Virus record (IMG/VR): IMGVR_UViG_3300027309_000021
Coordinates: 1 to 34,684 of that record
Direction: 5' to 3' (one strand)
DNA: 34,684 bases
From: a virus
The notes under the pieces are model-generated. The model saw only the letters and a list, made by a program, of their open reading frames with translations. It was not told the origin of the DNA and searched no databases. Position numbers and translations under genes: made by a program. This document shows positions 11,342 through 34,684 of this stretch, piece by piece (the first letter of the stretch is position 1; each line of letters starts with the position of its first letter).

Positions 11342-27335
<15,994 letters not shown>

Positions 27336-30300
27336 ATACTAAGCCTTGTTTTCTTAGGTATAAGTAACTTATTTACTTTTTCTAACGAATTTATCTGTGA
27401 TGCACCTAGAGCTTGAGGACTTTACTTCCAAGATAGTGCTAGCCCACAGATGGAAGCGCTAGTAGAACTTCACGATAACATTATGTATTATTTAGTTGCA
27501 ATTTTATTTGCTGTAGGTTGAATACAAGGAGCTATTATTAAAAATTTTGATAGTTCTAAATCACCGATAAGTAATAAATATCTTAATCATGGTAAATGTG
27601 TGCCTATTCAAAAGTATTTTAATTATATTCAACAAAAACACTACTCCACTTCTTCAAATCATGAAATTAAGGAAGAGACTTTGCCTATACAGATAGAAAT
27701 AAATGTAATAAAATTATATGAAAATGCCACCCTTAAAAAACAAATTATAGATGAAAATAAATATAAATCTGGTATATACCTTTTAACAAATTTACTTAAT
27801 AAAGATAAATATGTTGGTCAATCTATTGATTTAGGTAAAAGATTCACAAAATATTTTAATTTAAGTTATCTAAAAAATAGAAATACTCTTGTTATAAGTA
27901 GAGCTTTAATAAAGTATGGTTATGCTAATTTTTCTATTAGCATCTTAGAATATTGTGACAAAGATATTTTAAACGAAAAAGAGCAATATTACATGGATAT
28001 TATAAAACCAGTATATAATACATTAAAAATAGCTGGAAGTTCATCAGGTTATAAACATACACAAGAAAGTAAAGATAAGCGTAGTTTAAACTTGAAAGGT
28101 AAATATACAGGAATAAATTCTCCTTTATATGGTAGAACTCATACTGAACAAACTAAAGAACTTATGAGTTCAATGAAAAAAGGCCAAAATAATAATTTTT
28201 ATGGTAAGACTCACACCGATGAAACTAGAGAGCTCATTAGACAAAAAGCCATAGGTAGAAAACATATACCTAGTACTTTAGAAAAAATGAGTAAAGTTAA
28301 AGGTAATCCTGTTAATATTTATGAAAAATGTAATTCAGAAGGTTTTAAACTTATAGGTAATTTCGTTTCTGCTAGAAAAGCAGGTCTGTTTTTAGGTATT
28401 AGTGGTAGTACAATCATTAAATATATGCATTCTGGAGAGGTATTTAAAGATAGATATAAATTTTCGGGGCAAGCTCCCAAATAAATGAATATAGTTATAA
28501 CAACTATGAATAAAACCACTATATGCTGGAAACTCCTAAAGCCTTAAAAACTAATGATTAGTGATAGCTTTAATGGATGATACAATGGATTATCAGCAGG
28601 AAACCAAAAGGTACTTACCTAAATAGGATCCTCAGAGACTACATGTGAGACATATGCAGTAGCTAACCCTAACATATGATAATATAGTCCGCATAGTATA
28701 GAAATATATTATTATTTTAGACACTAATCGAGCTTATATGAACAATTACTCCTGCTTTAATCTTAGTATTAATAGCTTTCCCTTCTTTCAAATTACTATA
28801 TTTAATGGATGAGGTTACTGACCCTTCATTATCCGTGTTAGCAGAGGGGCACCAATGATACTGATCCTACGAATATCCAGACTTCTTAAATAGTGATGGA
28901 GATTTTGTTGAGTTTGATTCTTACTTAGTTCCTGAATCTGATTTAGAAGAAGGAGCGTTAAGAATGTTAGAAGTAGATAATAGAGTTATCCTTCCTGAAA
29001 TTACACACACTAGATTTATTCTTACTGCAGCAGATGAACTGAGGACCTTTAGCAAGTACCTCTATATGTCTATACACTATCAAATTCCGGGGACACCCTA
29101 AAGACCTTTTAACTAAACGTTCATCTCAAAAGGTTAAACGTGGCTATGTTAATGACCATAGGTATAGTAATATCAAAAGGTATATACGAAAGTTAAATGG
29201 GTTATCGCGGATCTAAATCACCTAGTTACCTTATTTGGTTACCCTACAATCTTATAACTCACGCTACAGCAGCAAAGAAAGATTGCTAGGCTACATCACC
29301 ATCATGGTGTAGTAGGTTGTAAAAGAGCAACGAGTAGACGGTAGTGGTCTATAATAGTAAAAAGAGGGTTACACTCAACTATTCTAGATTAAGGTATACT
29401 CTAGTGGACCTGATAATAGGTCGTTGGGTTTACAGCTATACCTAAAATCTAAATATTTTAATTATTTCACTGTCAATATGGGGGACAAATGCTTATACCC
29501 TAGATTATTCATGTAGAAACTAGTATCATCCATCTCTAACCCTAAATGATTCATGTAGAGATTAGTATCATCCATATCTAACCCTATATGATTTATGTAT
29601 ATTACTTTACTGTGGTACATTTGGGCACCGTTTTTTTAATATCATGAAACCAGATTTATAGATCATGGTAAAGTAAGCTCTCGATTAAATGTTCTTTTGC
29701 TTTCCTAGTCCCCTCATGGGCCTTGCCCTGTTGAGGGACAAGCCCGAAAGGGCTAGTGATAAATAAATGTTATGGTCGGTTTTATTCGGGAAATAACCAC
29801 AGTCATATCACAAGTGAAGTAATTAATAAAGTACTAGCTAATCAAGGTGTTTCTATAACACAAAAGAAACTGAACATTTTGTTAAATATTAAGGGTGTAA
29901 CTTTTGACTTACCCTTCGACAGTCAAACATTTCCAGCTTTATTTGGTTTAGTAGGTAAACCTATAAGCAGAAGACCTAAGGCCGGTATATATATTTTTAC
30001 ACACTTAGCAACTGGTAGAAAATATGTGGGGTCAAGTAATAGTCTTTCAAGAAGATTAGAACAATATTTTAATCCTAACCCTCTATTTTATAAGGAATAT
30101 GGTTTATTCCTTCCTTTGATTAAAAAAGAAGGGTTTTCTGCTTTTAATTTGGAAGTATTTGTTATGCCGGAGGAATTAAGCTCAGATTATAACTTTTTTT
30201 TTGAACAATATCACTTATTAGATAGTGATTTTAACTTAAATACTCAAAGAGTTGTTAATTTTAGAGTTAATCAAGGAAATACTGTTTATTTATATGATTT

Positions 30301-31013
30301 TGAAGGTAAGATTTTATATTACACTGCAACTTCTTTAAATGTATTGAAAGCTGATTTAGGTGTACATCATGCTACTGTTACAGAATGTATAAAAACCGGA
30401 TCACTTTATCTAGATTACTTTATAATTACAGATAAATTAAAACCAGATGCAAATAAAGCTGGTTTATCTTTAGAAGAGTTATCTAAGCTTACTTTGGATA
30501 AAAGATCTTTATTTCTATAAAAAATATTTTTCTTTGAAAAACAGTAAATCAGTTTATATTAAACAAGATGTTACAGGAGTAATATACAATTTTTCTAGCA
30601 TAACATCATTAGTTAAATACTTTAATAGCATAAATATTAAGACTAACCGTAATAAGATAGCTAGTTGTTTAAATACCAACGAGTCTTATTTAGGTTACAC
30701 TTACTACACCGGTACAAGCTAAACATGATCATCCCCCATAACTAAATGAGTGCCAAAAAATTAATATAATAATAAAATATTTAGATCATGGAAAAGTAAA
30801 CTTTCGGTTATCCATTCATTTGCAATTCCAGCATTAGGGGTAAAATGTGATGCTTACCCAGGGAGATTAAATCAATTCTCTGTTTTAATTAACAGATTAG
30901 GAACATTCTATGGTCAATGTTCAGAAATTTGTGGTATATTACACAGCTCTATGCCTATTGTTGTAGAATCTGTGTCCTTAGAGAAATTCTTGTCTTGATT
31001 ACAAGAACAATAG
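27336..31013 (+). CDS. cox2: cox2, cytochrome c oxidase subunit II (3 exons), in frame with cox1
   Basis: Subunit II carries the CuA centre that takes electrons from cytochrome c. Exons: the 3' part of 27027-27593, then 28721-29035 and 30807-31013 (TAG stop). Conserved segments are [43 protein letters not shown], and the CuA ligands in [16 protein letters not shown], ending S-W-L-Q-E-Q. The N-terminus has no ATG: the cox1 frame continues through [19 protein letters not shown] into F-I-C-D-A-P. ATA at 27336 or 27360 are possible non-AUG starts; from 27360 the protein would be 251 residues, the usual length. The alternative is a fused Cox1-Cox2 precursor. The 27336 start is only a nominal boundary. 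Confidence 0.93.
27594..28484 (+). CDS. GIY-YIG homing endonuclease of the first cox2 intron
   Basis: The frame is continuous with the fused cox1/cox2 exon (N-H-G-K-C-V-P-I-Q) to TAA 28482-28484. The GIY-YIG core is [18 protein letters not shown] (near 27771-27825), then K-R-F-T-K-Y-F and the Glu-bearing E-K-E-Q-Y-Y-M-D-I (near 27978). Three NUMOD3-like repeats follow ([28 protein letters not shown], and an earlier S-G-Y-K-H-T-Q-E), then a NUMOD1-type module with a helix-turn-helix ([20 protein letters not shown]). It is complete and unbroken. Cox1 exon 12, cox2 exon 1 and this HE form one open frame. Confidence 0.9.
   Translation, partial: KCVPIQKYFNYIQQKHYSTSSNHEIKEETLPIQIEINVIKLYENATLKKQIIDENKYKSGIYLLTNLLNKDKYVGQSIDLGKRFTKYFNLSYLKNRNTLVISRALIKYGYANFSISILEYCDKDILNEKEQYYMDIIKPVYNTLKIAGSSSGYKHTQESKDKRSLNLKGKYTGINSPLYGRTHTEQTKELMSSMKKGQNNNFYGKTHTDETRELIRQKAIGRKHIPSTLEKMSKVKGNPVNIYEKCNSEGFKLIGNFVSARKAGLFLGISGSTIIKYMHSGEVFKDRYKFSGQAPK
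27594..28720 (+). mobile_element. First cox2 group I intron
   Basis: The exon ends CTT AAT CAT GGT (27593) and resumes ACA CTA ATC GAG (28721), giving Y-L-N-H-G-T-L-I-E-L-I-W. The core follows the HE at about 28518-28692: TATATGCTGGAAACTCC, GGATTATCAGCAGGAAACC, ATCCTCAGAGACTACATG and ATAATATAGTCCGC, with P7 GACTA/TAGTC. Confidence 0.9.
29498..29604 (+). repeat. 42-bp tandem repeat, about 2.5 units, in the second cox2 intron
   Basis: Units start at 29498, 29540 and 29582, each opening with CCCTA and containing TTCATGTAGA and TAGTATCATCCAT. The third unit is partial (CCCTATATGATTTATGTATA). Units differ at a few positions, so the expansion is not brand new. Confidence 0.85.
29657..29712 (+). 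repeat. Internal copy of the intron 3' end plus the start of the cox2 exon
   Basis: AGATCATGGTAAAGTAAGCT CTCG at 29661-29684 matches the real intron end AGATCATGGAAAAGTAAACT TTCG at 30783-30806. The bases that follow also match: ATTAAATGTTCTTTTGC versus exon GTTATCCATTCATTTGC. Read in frame, the copy gives I-K-C-S-F-A-F beside the true V-I-H-S-F-A-I. The HE gene lies between the two copies. Confidence 0.65.
29705..29757 (+). repeat. GC-rich double-hairpin element flanked by CTAGT
   Basis: A bulged stem GTCCCCTCA/TGAGGGAC (29708-29739) encloses a GGGC/GCCC hairpin (29718-29728), and a second hairpin AGCCC-GAAA-GGGCT (29741-29754) follows. CTAGT occurs at both ends (29705-29709 and 29753-29757), like a target-site duplication. 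Composition is far richer in GC than the surroundings. It resembles fungal mitochondrial double-hairpin elements or GC clusters. Confidence 0.65.
29756..30520 (+). CDS. GIY-YIG homing endonuclease of the second cox2 intron
   Basis: The recognisable protein starts near GTG 29756 or soon after, without an ATG at a plausible place, and ends at TAA 30518-30520. It has an N-terminal part ([20 protein letters not shown]) shared with the cox1-i493 enzyme, and a GIY-YIG core [18 protein letters not shown] (near 29980-30037). R-R-L-E-Q-Y, the Glu-bearing F-E-Q-Y-H-L-L-D and a NUMOD1-like module follow. It is a close paralogue of the cox1-i493 HE, although the two introns have different core types. Its frame stays open upstream across the GC element, so the true start is unclear. 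The C-terminal module is displaced by a frameshift (30513-30722). Confidence 0.8.
   Translation: MINKCYGRFYSGNNHSHITSEVINKVLANQGVSITQKKLNILLNIKGVTFDLPFDSQTFPALFGLVGKPISRRPKAGIYIFTHLATGRKYVGSSNSLSRRLEQYFNPNPLFYKEYGLFLPLIKKEGFSAFNLEVFVMPEELSSDYNFFFEQYHLLDSDFNLNTQRVVNFRVNQGNTVYLYDFEGKILYYTATSLNVLKADLGVHHATVTECIKTGSLYLDYFIITDKLKPDANKAGLSLEELSKLTLDKRSLFL
30513..30722 (+). pseudogene. Frameshifted C-terminal DNA-binding module of the second cox2 intron endonuclease
   Basis: In the next frame the sequence is open across the HE stop ([17 protein letters not shown]) and continues with [15 protein letters not shown] to TAA 30720-30722. This is a NUMOD1/IENR1-like helix-turn-helix module of the kind expected at the end of such HEs. 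A 1-nt indel near 30505-30520, next to A/T runs, would join it to the main frame. Confidence 0.65.
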
Positions 31014-31253: not shown

Positions 31254-31380
31254 AGTATAACAAATCCCAGCTTTCATTATACTTTTCGGTTTAAGCTGGA
31301 AAATTGCAGTTACGTCGATCTTTTTTAAGGTTAGTAAAAAGCAATTTGGGGAGAAGACAATTGTATTGGTAAAGCCCTAT
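31254..31380 (+). repeat. Structured intergenic repeat, copy 3
   Basis: AGTATAACAAATCC is followed by a first hairpin CCAGCTT...AAGCTGG, GAAAATTGC, a second hairpin ATTGC...GCAAT, TTGGGGAGAAGAC and GGTAAAGCCCTAT. Compared with copy 2, the first stem changes on both sides (CCAGT/ACTGG to CCAGCTT/AAGCTGG) while staying paired. Confidence 0.65.
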
Positions 31381-31400
31381 ACAAATCACATTTACCCATA

Positions 31401-31506
31401 ATTTTAAAATATACAACCTATCCATATTAAATAGATAATTAACATGATTAATTAAAAAAACTTTTTAACTAAATGTAATTTTAAAATCATTTTTTAATTT
31501 AAAATG
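31401..31506 (+). repeat. Duplicated nad1 leader in front of the unknown gene
   Basis: This 103-nt stretch plus ATG matches 32445-32549 with few differences. Shared landmarks are ATTTTAAAATATACAA, CATATTAAATAGATAATTAA, CATGATTAATTAAAA, CTTTTTAA, AATGTAATTTTA, and TTTAAAATG at the start codon. The leader probably carries transcription, processing or translation signals used by nad1. Confidence 0.8.
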
Positions 31507-31704
31507 ATGTATTTTCAAATTATTATTATTATGTTTTTGTTTACAAAAGTTCGATCTGCTCCTCTGGGACGGGCAGAGGAAATTGAACGTGTTATGAGTG
31601 TTATAGAAGGTATTAGGCAAGTTGCAAGTAAAATATTGGATATACTAAAAACTTACCCTAACGAATTTACACATAAATTCAACCTTATCAGATTTAGTAG
31701 CTAA
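31504..31704 (+). pseudogene. Unknown membrane-protein gene, N-terminal segment
   Basis: ATG at 31504 lies at the same place as the nad1 start in the copied leader. The segment starts with a hydrophobic, signal-like stretch (M-M-Y-F-Q-I-I-I-I-M-F-L-F), followed by APLGRAEEIERVMSVIEGIR and KILDILKTYPNEFTH, and stops at TAA 31702-31704. The next frame carries a plausible continuation, so this looks like the 5' part of a gene split by a frameshift near 31680. I know no family for it; it is not atp9, rps3 or a nad subunit. Confidence 0.55.
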
Positions 31705-32002
31705 AGCATCTTCCGATTTAATTGTGCTATTTACTATATTATTTTGAACTGGTACGCTGGCTTTAAATACATTACCTTCATTTGAAGACAGTATTAGTCA
31801 TTATATTCATCATAGTTTAGCACCACATAAATTATATCTATTAACATGTGTATACGGACTATTATTAGGTGCAGCTGGAACTTCTGTATACAATATCTTA
31901 GATGCTTTAGCTAGTAGTGCTAAATGAGGATTATTAGCTGGTAGTGCTAAATGAGGATTATTAGCTACATCTTTTTTTCTGATTTTTCGTGTCTTGTTTT
32001 AA
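31649..32002 (+). pseudogene. Unknown membrane-protein gene, middle segment
   Basis: This frame is open from 31649; convincing protein begins at L-S-D-L-V-A-K-A-S-S-D-L (31685) and ends at TAA 32000-32002, with TGA read as Trp at 31746, 31925 and 31952 regions. It has two likely membrane segments (IVLFTILFWTGTLALNTL; LYLLTCVYGLLLGAAGTSVY) separated by HYIHHSLAPHK. A perfectly framed 27-bp tandem duplication (31910-31963) repeats S-A-K-W-G-L-L-A-G near the end. It follows the N-terminal segment after a +1 shift. Confidence 0.55.
31910..31963 (+). repeat. 27-bp tandem duplication
   Basis: GCTAGTAGTGCTAAATGAGG ATTATTA is followed by a copy differing at one base (GCTGG). It adds nine codons in frame (S-A-K-W-G-L-L-A-G) to the unknown membrane protein. 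Confidence 0.85.
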
Positions 32003-32159: not shown

Positions 32160-32424
32160 TTTTTTTACTCTTGGTTTTGGGTTAAATTTTTGTGGTTCAA
32201 ATTTTCCTGATGGTTTACCATTACCACATAAAGATTTGCCGTAACCACATAACGACCTACTACCAAGAGACATACCCTGCAACGTCTCTCCCGATAATAC
32301 TAACATATATTATGTGCATATTCTGATTTGAATAGCATCCGCAATAGCTTTGTGTTATCTTGGACTTAGCATGGAACAAATTAATCAAGTGTCTGAACAA
32401 ACTAATATAGTTCAGTCTTTTTAG
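32160..32424 (+). pseudogene. Unknown membrane-protein gene, C-terminal segment
   Basis: Frame 1 reads T-L-G-F-G-L-N-F-C-G-S-N-F-P-D-G-L-P-L-P, then a TAA (near 32241), then PHNDLLPRDIPCNVSPDNTN, a membrane segment (Y-V-H-I-L-I-W-I-A-S-A-I-A-L-C-Y-L-G-L) and a hydrophilic end stopping at TAG 32422. It may be the C-terminus of the same ancestral gene as the two preceding segments; the stretch 32003-32160 has several stops and nothing recognisable. The CCACATAA repeats around the internal stop suggest slippage. Confidence 0.4.
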
Positions 32425-32444
32425 ACAAATAACATAATCCTTCA

Positions 32445-32546
32445 ATTTTAAAATATACAATCTATGCATATTAAATAGATAATTAACATGATTAATTAAA
32501 ATAAACTTTTTAAATGTAATTTTAAGATCATCCTTTTAAATTTAAA
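32445..32546 (+). promoter_or_regulatory. nad1 5' leader
   Basis: This is the immediate upstream region of nad1, duplicated at 31401-31503. Conservation between copies is high right up to the ATG, so the unit probably contains sequence needed for expression. No promoter consensus could be identified with confidence. Confidence 0.5.
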
Positions 32547-34684
32547 ATGTTATATTTTCCAACCATTATATCTGTTCTTGAAGTATTAGCTGTTACTATA
32601 CCTGTTTTATTAACAGTAGCTTTTGTAACAGTAGCTGAGAGAAAAACTATGGCTAGCATGCAAAGAAGATTGGGACCTAATGCAGTGGGTTGTATAACAT
32701 TAAATCTTACACATAAAAGAACTTTTCATTATTCTTGTGATGCTTTAAGTGAATTATACTATAATAGAAAAGCCCCCCTTATTGAATTTTCGGATGATGT
32801 GCTTTTTACTTCTACTTATTTACTTAACCCATCTGTTATTCTATCTTTCTTTAAATCTTTAAAAGGTAAAGGGGGGGGTATTTATATGTTCAGATACAAA
32901 AAAGACCCTAAGGTTTTTTATATAGGGAGAACTAAAGACTTCCACAAAAGATTTAAAGATCATTTGAGTTCTAACTTAAAAGATAGATTCCATAAATTTG
33001 CTAATTCAATTGGTTGAGATCAATTTGAATTTTCTATTATAGAGATATGTGACCTTAGCATCCAACAGGATAGAGAAAATTTTTACTTACAAAAATACTT
33101 ACCTTTATTAAACACTATCTTTAAAAGTAATTTTAGTGAAATACAATCTTATAAGTCTTTATATGAGATATTAAGACTTAGACAGTCAAAATTGGATTCA
33201 GATAATAAAGATTTACACCTATATGTATATGAATATTGTAATAATCAAATTAGTACTAATTATCTAATATTTAGTAGCATAAGTGCGTCATCCAAAGAAT
33301 ATGGTATAGCTAGAGAAACAATTAGTGTTTATTTAAATACTTACGTACCCTACAAAAATCTCTTATTTTTAACTAAAAAAATATAATGTTTAGATTTAGC
33401 AGAAAAACTAGATAGTGATGCTATGCAAGTATTAAATTTAAATCATAATATAGCTAAAAAAATATGAATGTATTTTATAGAATCAAAAGATACTGTTGTT
33501 AAAACAGAATTAGAGTCTAAAAGTGCAGTAGCTAAATTATTAGGTGTACAACATTTAGTTATAACTAATCATCTAGATAAACTAATAAAAGGAGGTATTA
33601 ATGGTCATTATATATTTAATCATGAATTAAATGATTTAGAGCTAGAAAAATTAATTTAATTCTCATCATTAAGAAAAACGAGAAATCGTACAGTATGGGC
33701 TTATAATGCTATAACTTTAGAATTAATTACCGATTCATTTAATAGTATTCAAAAAGCAGCTGAATATTTTAATGTGGATTACAGATCTGTGGTTAGACAC
33801 TTAGATACTGAATTAGCTACTAAAAAGGGCAATTATTTAGTATTATTTATTAATTATAAATTGACTGATTTAAAGAGAAAATAATTACTAAATAAATTTA
33901 AATTAGCAAAAAATGAGACTACTGAAATTTGAGTTTATAAAAAGTTAGATGATAGATTTATTCTAATGAATTCCAATGAAACTGGTTTTAGTTCAAAACA
34001 TTTAGCAGCTAAAGAATTAAAATTAAGTCATAAAACAATTAGTAAATTCTTGAATACTCATAGAGATTATAAAGGTTTGTATTTTTACAGTATTAAATTG
34101 TAAGATAAAAAGTAAAGTGTGAGAAACTTTATTAGGCCCATCAGTGAAAGAGAACCTTTTGCTATAAACCATCAAATTGACGGGAACACCTTAAAGCTAT
34201 TTCAACTAAATGTATTAGGTAACTAAATACATGGCCCAGGTAATGACTCGGGGTATAGTAAAATCGAAATAGATGTATGAAAAGAAATAGGCAACCCGCA
34301 GCCAACCAGCATAATAATAATTTATTATTGTGGTGTGCAGTTCATCGACTAAACGTTGGTTGGCATAAAATTTTGGTTATTTTATGCTTAAGATATAGTC
34401 AGGCCCTACTTGAGAAAGTACAGGGTATAAATATATATATTTATACCTGGAAATGGATAGTTACTCTATTTAGGGAGAAAACCTCAATTCTTTACCTGTA
34501 TTATGTAAAATAAATGGTTAAATGAGGACATTCGTGATATGGTCTACTTCAAGCATTTGCCGATGCTCTTAAACTTCTATTAAAAGAATATGTTTCTCCT
34601 ACACAAGCCAATATTGTTTTATTTTTCCTTGGTCCTATTATAACTTTAATTTTTTCATTACTTGGTTATGCTGTAATACCTTAG
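32547..34684 (+). CDS. nad1: nad1, NADH dehydrogenase subunit 1 (5' part: exons 1 and 2)
   Basis: Nad1 is a membrane-arm subunit of complex I that helps form the quinone site. Exon 1 is 32547-32690: [13 protein letters not shown] through [22 protein letters not shown]. Exon 2 starts at 34535: [19 protein letters not shown] through [23 protein letters not shown] encodes the junction Trp. After V-I-P (CCT, 34679-34681) the sequence reads TAG at the window edge. The family continues for some 200 residues, so this is most likely an exon end at T34682 followed by another intron rather than a true stop. Confidence 0.93.
32691..34101 (+). pseudogene. GIY-YIG homing endonuclease of the nad1 intron with tandem DNA-binding modules, three in-frame TAA codons
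   Basis: The frame is continuous with nad1 exon 1. The GIY-YIG core is [20 protein letters not shown] (near 32874-32936), followed by K-R-F-K-D-H-L, TGA33015 (Trp) and a Glu-bearing R-E-N-F-Y-L-Q-K-Y. Then come repeated NUMOD1-like units: L-Y-V-Y-E...[16 protein letters not shown]...[15 protein letters not shown]...[15 protein letters not shown]...[13 protein letters not shown] interrupts at 33384, 33657 and 33882, always in frame and near module borders, with the last stop at 34099-34101. The nuclease domain and first module remain translatable; the later modules would be lost. Confidence 0.82.
32691..34534 (+). mobile_element. nad1 group I intron (group IC-like)
   Basis: The exon ends GCA GTG GGT (32690) and resumes TGA TAT GGT CTA (34535), giving N-A-V-G-W-Y-G-L-L-Q. 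The core follows the HE at about 34160-34420: CATCAAATTGACGGGAACAC, TTTCAACTAAATG, GACTCGGGGTATAGTAA, GGCAACCCGCAGCCAAC, TTCATCGACTAAACGTTGG and AAGATATAGTCAGGCC. It is similar to the second cox2 intron. Confidence 0.88.

Follow-up and report, generated by a model that had tools for sequence, protein, structure and literature searches.

The second cox2 intron of the DNA analyzed here (hereinafter the window, the entire stretch of 34,684 bases, IMG/VR record IMGVR_UViG_3300027309_000021) carries two copies of its own 3' end, with the frame of a GIY-YIG endonuclease between them. The inner copy appears to be an alternate, proximal 3' splice site the use of which would yield a Cox2-endonuclease fusion, whereas splicing at the outer copy would give cox2; judging from the sequence, we assign to this interpretation a probability of about 0.72. 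The intron lies between the exon that ends in ...FILTAAD (T29035, phase 0) and the exon that begins with VIHSFAI... (G30807). The relevant features are as follows:

28721..29035, plus strand: cox2 exon 5' of the second intron (COX2, PF00116), ending in phase 0 with T as the last base
29036..29425 (3' limit approximate), plus strand: group I intron core (Rfam RF00028), common to both putative 3' splice sites
29497..29600, plus strand: tandem repeat with a unit of 42 nt, present in approximately 2.5 copies on the 3' periphery of the intron (two copies at 29497-29580, partial third copy read directly)
29602..29676, plus strand: predicted terminal hairpin, in which 29602-29616 pairs with 29662-29676 (15 bp)
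29654..29683, plus strand: proximal, or inner, copy of the 3' end of the intron, which ends with G29683 (repeat search and shuffle tests)
29684..29700, plus strand: exon start as copied at the inner site, ATTAAATGTTCTTTTGC, which would supply the first codons of the fused endonuclease frame
29684..30520, plus strand: GIY-YIG endonuclease frame, 278 codons and TAA (30518-30520), open from the inner splice site
29703..29762, plus strand: G+C-rich, hairpin-like stretch in the N-terminal extension of the endonuclease, through which the frame remains open (direct reading)
30522..30722, plus strand: out-of-frame remnant of the C-terminal part of the endonuclease, 37.5% identical (E 4e-6) to the endonuclease C-terminus in contig L037 (see below)
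30777..30806, plus strand: distal, or outer, copy of the 3' end of the intron, which ends with G30806 (repeat search and shuffle tests)
30807..31013, plus strand: last cox2 exon, ending in WLQEQ and a stop codon

The window reads as fungal mitochondrial DNA, with exons of cob, cox1, cox2 and nad1 (genetic code 4) separated by introns that contain LAGLIDADG and GIY-YIG open reading frames (ORFs). The cox1 and cox2 genes form one unbroken frame at 27024-27608, with neither a stop codon nor an ATG between them. Pairing of cox1 and cox2 is known in Pleosporales, and a possible fused cox1-cox2 polyprotein has been proposed for Coniothyrium glycines (PMC6221350); by analogy, the continuous frame hints at the source of the window. 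The stretch 3' of cox2 is flanked by a direct repeat of about 150 nt (31378-31526 and 32422-32569, 84% identity), between the copies of which there is a short frame (31724-32002) with a 27-nt in-frame tandem duplication.

A repeat search detected a 47-nt repeat pair at 29654-29700 and 30777-30823 (77% identity, spacing of 1,123 nt). The duplicated segment comprises the last 28 or so nt of the second cox2 intron and approximately 17 nt of the next exon, with 34 of 45 positions identical, and the exact 3' sites fall between G29683 and A29684 in the inner copy and between G30806 and G30807 in the outer one. Within 29041-31000, the ungapped score of the repeat is 19.5, compared to at most 16.5 in 100 dinucleotide shuffles. 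The original prediction that the true intron 3' end and the start of the next exon are repeated here is thus borne out by an alignment that exceeds the shuffles, and translation from both junctions yields the residues it had named, IKCSFAF versus VIHSFAI. The endonuclease gene that it placed between the copies is there as well, with a match to the GIY-YIG domain profile PF01541 (E 2.5e-6, 28.1 bits against a cut-off of 22.6) that covers positions 2-40 of the 78 in the profile.

For each of the 17 introns in the window, the 3'-terminal 28 nt together with the first 17 nt of the following exon were compared with the same intron, the junctions being set by protein homology and some of them accurate to a few nt only. 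A copy of the 3' end was found in one intron, the second of cox2 (34/45; 300 shuffles averaged 23.4 and did not exceed 28), and the scores for the other 16 introns were within their nulls, i.e., none of these contains such a copy. The intron part of the repeat is secure, with 23 of 28 positions identical against a maximum of 20 in 1000 shuffles; the exon part, which at fixed register has 11 identical positions of 17 (P 0.0015) or 15 of 25 (P 0.0006), is probable, being above chance yet short. This shortness of the exon part, taken alone, is what could be said for chance similarity of A+T-rich sequences, but the score of the complete repeat is outside its null, such an explanation is already refuted for the intron part, and the copy falls in one of the 17 introns, with an unfused endonuclease exactly behind it and in phase; the probability of a chance origin appears negligible. 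A tiny cox1 exon (YYVVA) was also considered as a second intron-end copy and was rejected given that it reads as an ordinary short exon with introns on either side.

The intron shows the hallmarks of group I, namely an upstream exon that ends in T29035 and intron ends at G (G30806 and G29683), and matches the Rfam family RF00028 at 29010-29423, exon included (E 1.9e-8; 39.3 bits, short of the gathering score, which is 50). Fungi are known to contain tandem group I introns that include pseudo-exons (PMC4964425, PMC12308204), and 29684-30806 could be conceived as a second intron of this kind, located behind a pseudo-exon and removed in a step of its own. However, no second group I or group II core was detected in 29440-30830, even at E-values up to 5, and the endonuclease gene fills this stretch. 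Such a twintron, which calls for two cores, was therefore rejected and is very improbable.

Under the alternate-splicing interpretation, one catalytic core could act with either of the two intron 3' ends, and both sites would be used in vivo. Splicing at the outer site, G30806, would remove the full intron of 1,771 nt and join the exons into cox2. Splicing at the inner site, G29683, would remove 648 nt and place the GIY-YIG endonuclease in frame behind the upstream cox2 exon; at the predicted junction 29035/29684, GCAGCAGAT would be followed by ATTAAATG and, in the peptide, FILTAAD by IKCSFAF, and the resulting Cox2-endonuclease fusion would probably be trimmed later.

With a tentative IGS near 29068, P1 would have four pairs and P10 two, whichever 3' exon is used, which makes P10 weak for both sites. 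The terminal hairpin contains the inner copy of the 3' end, and its 29602-29616 strand could also pair with 30785-30799 in the outer copy, at 14 of 15 positions (one mismatch). The hairpin itself is weak: 7% of the shuffled terminal segments pair equally well and, for this reason, a switch based on it is only an idea. Given this frequency and the mismatch in the outer copy, we did not adopt the switch as the mechanism.

The case for the inner site comes primarily from the frame of the endonuclease. The frame that starts at A29684 has the phase of the upstream cox2 exon, which ends at 29035, and is open through the endonuclease, including the GIY (29984) and YVG (around 30020) motifs. An in-frame TAA (29669-29671) is located 12 bases 5' of the inner junction, unspliced reading from the cox2 exon into the intron meets a stop at 29099-29101, and there is no ATG in the endonuclease frame ahead of the GIY and YVG motifs, the first one being at 30164. 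Given the upstream TAA and the position of the first ATG, the endonuclease is without a beginning unless the transcript is spliced at the inner site or translation starts at TTG or GTG; such codons within the ORF (29723, 29756) may be alternative beginnings. The approximately 35 codons ahead of the conserved part of the endonuclease would be open by chance with P 0.11, or about 0.04 when the right phase is included, a statistic that is modest by itself and additional to the repeat. Because the inner site gives the endonuclease the exact frame of the cox2 exon and an otherwise absent start, the suggestion in the original prediction that the inner copy is a decoy is the less likely one. The N-terminal extension includes the G+C-rich stretch 29703-29762, which is present in a single copy in the window and the compared loci. 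The endonuclease is about 36% identical to the endonuclease of the window's own cox1 intron. Its C-terminal part has moved to another frame, so that the ORF ends early; apparently, a frameshift shortened the ORF and the C-terminal part was lost.

A probe of IMG/VR viral contigs with cox1 yielded seven contigs, one of which (G002, here L037; IMGVR_UViG_3300030114_000526), a fungal mitochondrial contig, has an intron-split cox2 of the fungal type. Neither the endonuclease nor the last cox2 exon had a match in protein scans of viral contigs; among the genome contigs there were only bacterial cox2-like genes, and the phage collection contained no match. The comparison with other fungi that had been proposed for finding a donor of the copied segment led to the cox2 exon of L037, to which the inner exon copy is nearer (17 of 22 positions) than to the resident exon, with no donor in the searched contig collections, and an endonuclease-free allele was not found in these collections either.

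The cox2 gene of L037 contains three introns: A after VIH, B after GATGCA-T and C after FYG. The core of intron A is homologous to that of the window intron, with 71% DNA identity over the exon and the intron start. Introns A and B (6420-5249 and 5208-3821, minus strand), which are neighbors, are copies of each other, with cores that are 72% identical, as would be expected if a group I intron had been copied from one cox2 site to another. In intron B, the 3' end is present a second time within the intron (TCAATCTTTAGGTAAAAGTTGTGTTTCG versus ACAATTGTTAGGTCGAAGTTGTAGCTCG, 20 of 28 positions; maximum of 19 in 1000 shuffles), between the core and a GIY-YIG remnant, with the exon copied for two bases at most. 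This remnant is 53% identical to the window endonuclease, and its N-terminal part, TEITNSVLLNQKVNI, is in the frame expected from splicing at the inner copy; the ORF is broken by later insertions and is a pseudogene. There is no internal copy of the 3' end in intron A, where the N-terminal part of the endonuclease is lost, or in intron C, which has an endonuclease frame of 498 codons with an ATG. Hence the order of core, inner 3' end, endonuclease and outer 3' end is observed at two cox2 sites in two fungi, in both cases with start-less endonucleases, the sample being two and the frame test in intron B resting on a pseudogene. In L037, there is also a second copy of the cox2 C-terminus 3' of the gene (1173-1101, minus strand; NNSMPMVIESVSIEKFLTWLEEQ, 97% identity over 63 nt).

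With respect to the origin of this arrangement, the endonuclease ORF most likely brought along a copy of the intron 3' end, and perhaps a short exon segment, when it entered the intron; the old 3' end would then have become the site from which the ORF is expressed, and cox2 would have been spliced at the new one. Insertion of an endonuclease that brings a replacement intron 3' end is a plausible origin, and this part of the original prediction, which had the endonuclease inserted together with the intron end and exon of a donor, remains the likeliest one, with parallels in Podospora and Glomus. The indications of a replacement terminal exon are weak, given the short stretch of exon similarity, the closer match of the inner exon copy to the L037 exon and the absence of an exon copy from intron B of L037. 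The identity of the inner exon copy to the L037 cox2 exon (17/22), compared to 13/22 for the resident exon, would be compatible with a different descent of the exon sequence in one of the two copies, with 22 bases being too few to tell which copy is foreign.

The same kind of insertion might have left only a scar, the endonuclease having come with a donor intron end and exon start, and the inner copy being the displaced old end, functionless or at best a weak decoy. This scenario would account for the likeness in the exon beyond the few bases needed by P10 and for the better match of the inner exon copy to the cox2 exon of the other fungus, and C-terminal duplications do accompany mobile endonucleases in cox2, atp6, atp9 and nad3 of Glomus (PMC3630166). 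However, it gives no reason for an open frame in the exact phase of cox2 or for an endonuclease without a start, and the duplication in intron B of L037 comprises the intron end without the exon. We consider this possibility unlikely.

If alternate splicing is indeed the device, it may be decaying given that the endonuclease seems to be without its C-terminal part and the L037 counterpart is a pseudogene. A broader and rather speculative proposal, which at present we would sooner doubt than accept, is that the endonuclease is a module of an ORF and a portable intron 3' end that can be plugged into one family of group I introns at different cox2 sites; the old end would express the ORF, and the two ends would compete for 29602-29616, with this helix setting the ratio of endonuclease to cox2 messenger. 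Given the recurrence at another cox2 site in another fungus, the order of the events of endonuclease invasion can be tested by comparison of alleles. For annotation, the implication is that the proximal splice site, rather than an internal TTG, should be taken as the beginning of such ORFs.

Alternate 3' splice sites in the nad1-i4 and cox1-i7 introns of Podospora were reportedly described by Sellem and Belcour in 1994 (NAR 22:1135), and a paper of 1997 by these authors is cited on the Podospora introns as well. Passages in two papers credit alternate 3' splicing of these introns to Sellem and Belcour 1994 (PMC3073962, PMC7902536) and, according to a passage in another one, the optional ORF moves with a fragment 3' of its stop, of 292 bp in nad1-i4 and 49 bp in cox1-i7 (PMC4964425). 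As in Podospora, the ORF in the window is discontinuous with the upstream exon, lacks an initiation codon and would be reached by an alternate 3' splice site, and the proximal site, 5' of the ORF, would give an in-frame fusion with the exon. To compare with the downstream fragment of 292 or 49 bp, the ORF stop in the window is 286 nt away from the outer site, and the frame-shifted C-terminal remnant takes up about 200 of these. Compared with Podospora, the gene and the site are different, the two 3' ends in the window have remained recognizable as one sequence, and some exon is copied; in this comparison, Podospora is represented by description rather than by alignment.

The splicing-mediated core creep of Ophiostomatales (PMC8393795, PMC7902536, PMC12308204) is close but uses two or three intron modules, whereas the window has one core and two 3' ends. 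The mobile ORFs in atp6 of Allomyces and in atp6, atp9, cox2 and nad3 of Glomus (PMC3630166) likewise place an endonuclease between two copies of the host gene end; in these cases, the duplication extends to whole C-termini, the expressed one being 5' of the endonuclease, whereas in the window it consists of the intron end and about 17 exon bases, with the true exon 3' and no second cox2 C-terminus seen. The clade II GIY-YIG proteins of cox2 IC introns (PMC7487136) similarly reside in a cox2 group I intron and are related to cox1 GIY-YIG proteins. The principle of alternate 3' splicing is already known from Podospora; by analogy, the second cox2 intron of the window would be a new example with the two 3' ends still alike and, if this is true, an unusually readable case of a start-less intron endonuclease that can be expressed without loss of the host cox2.
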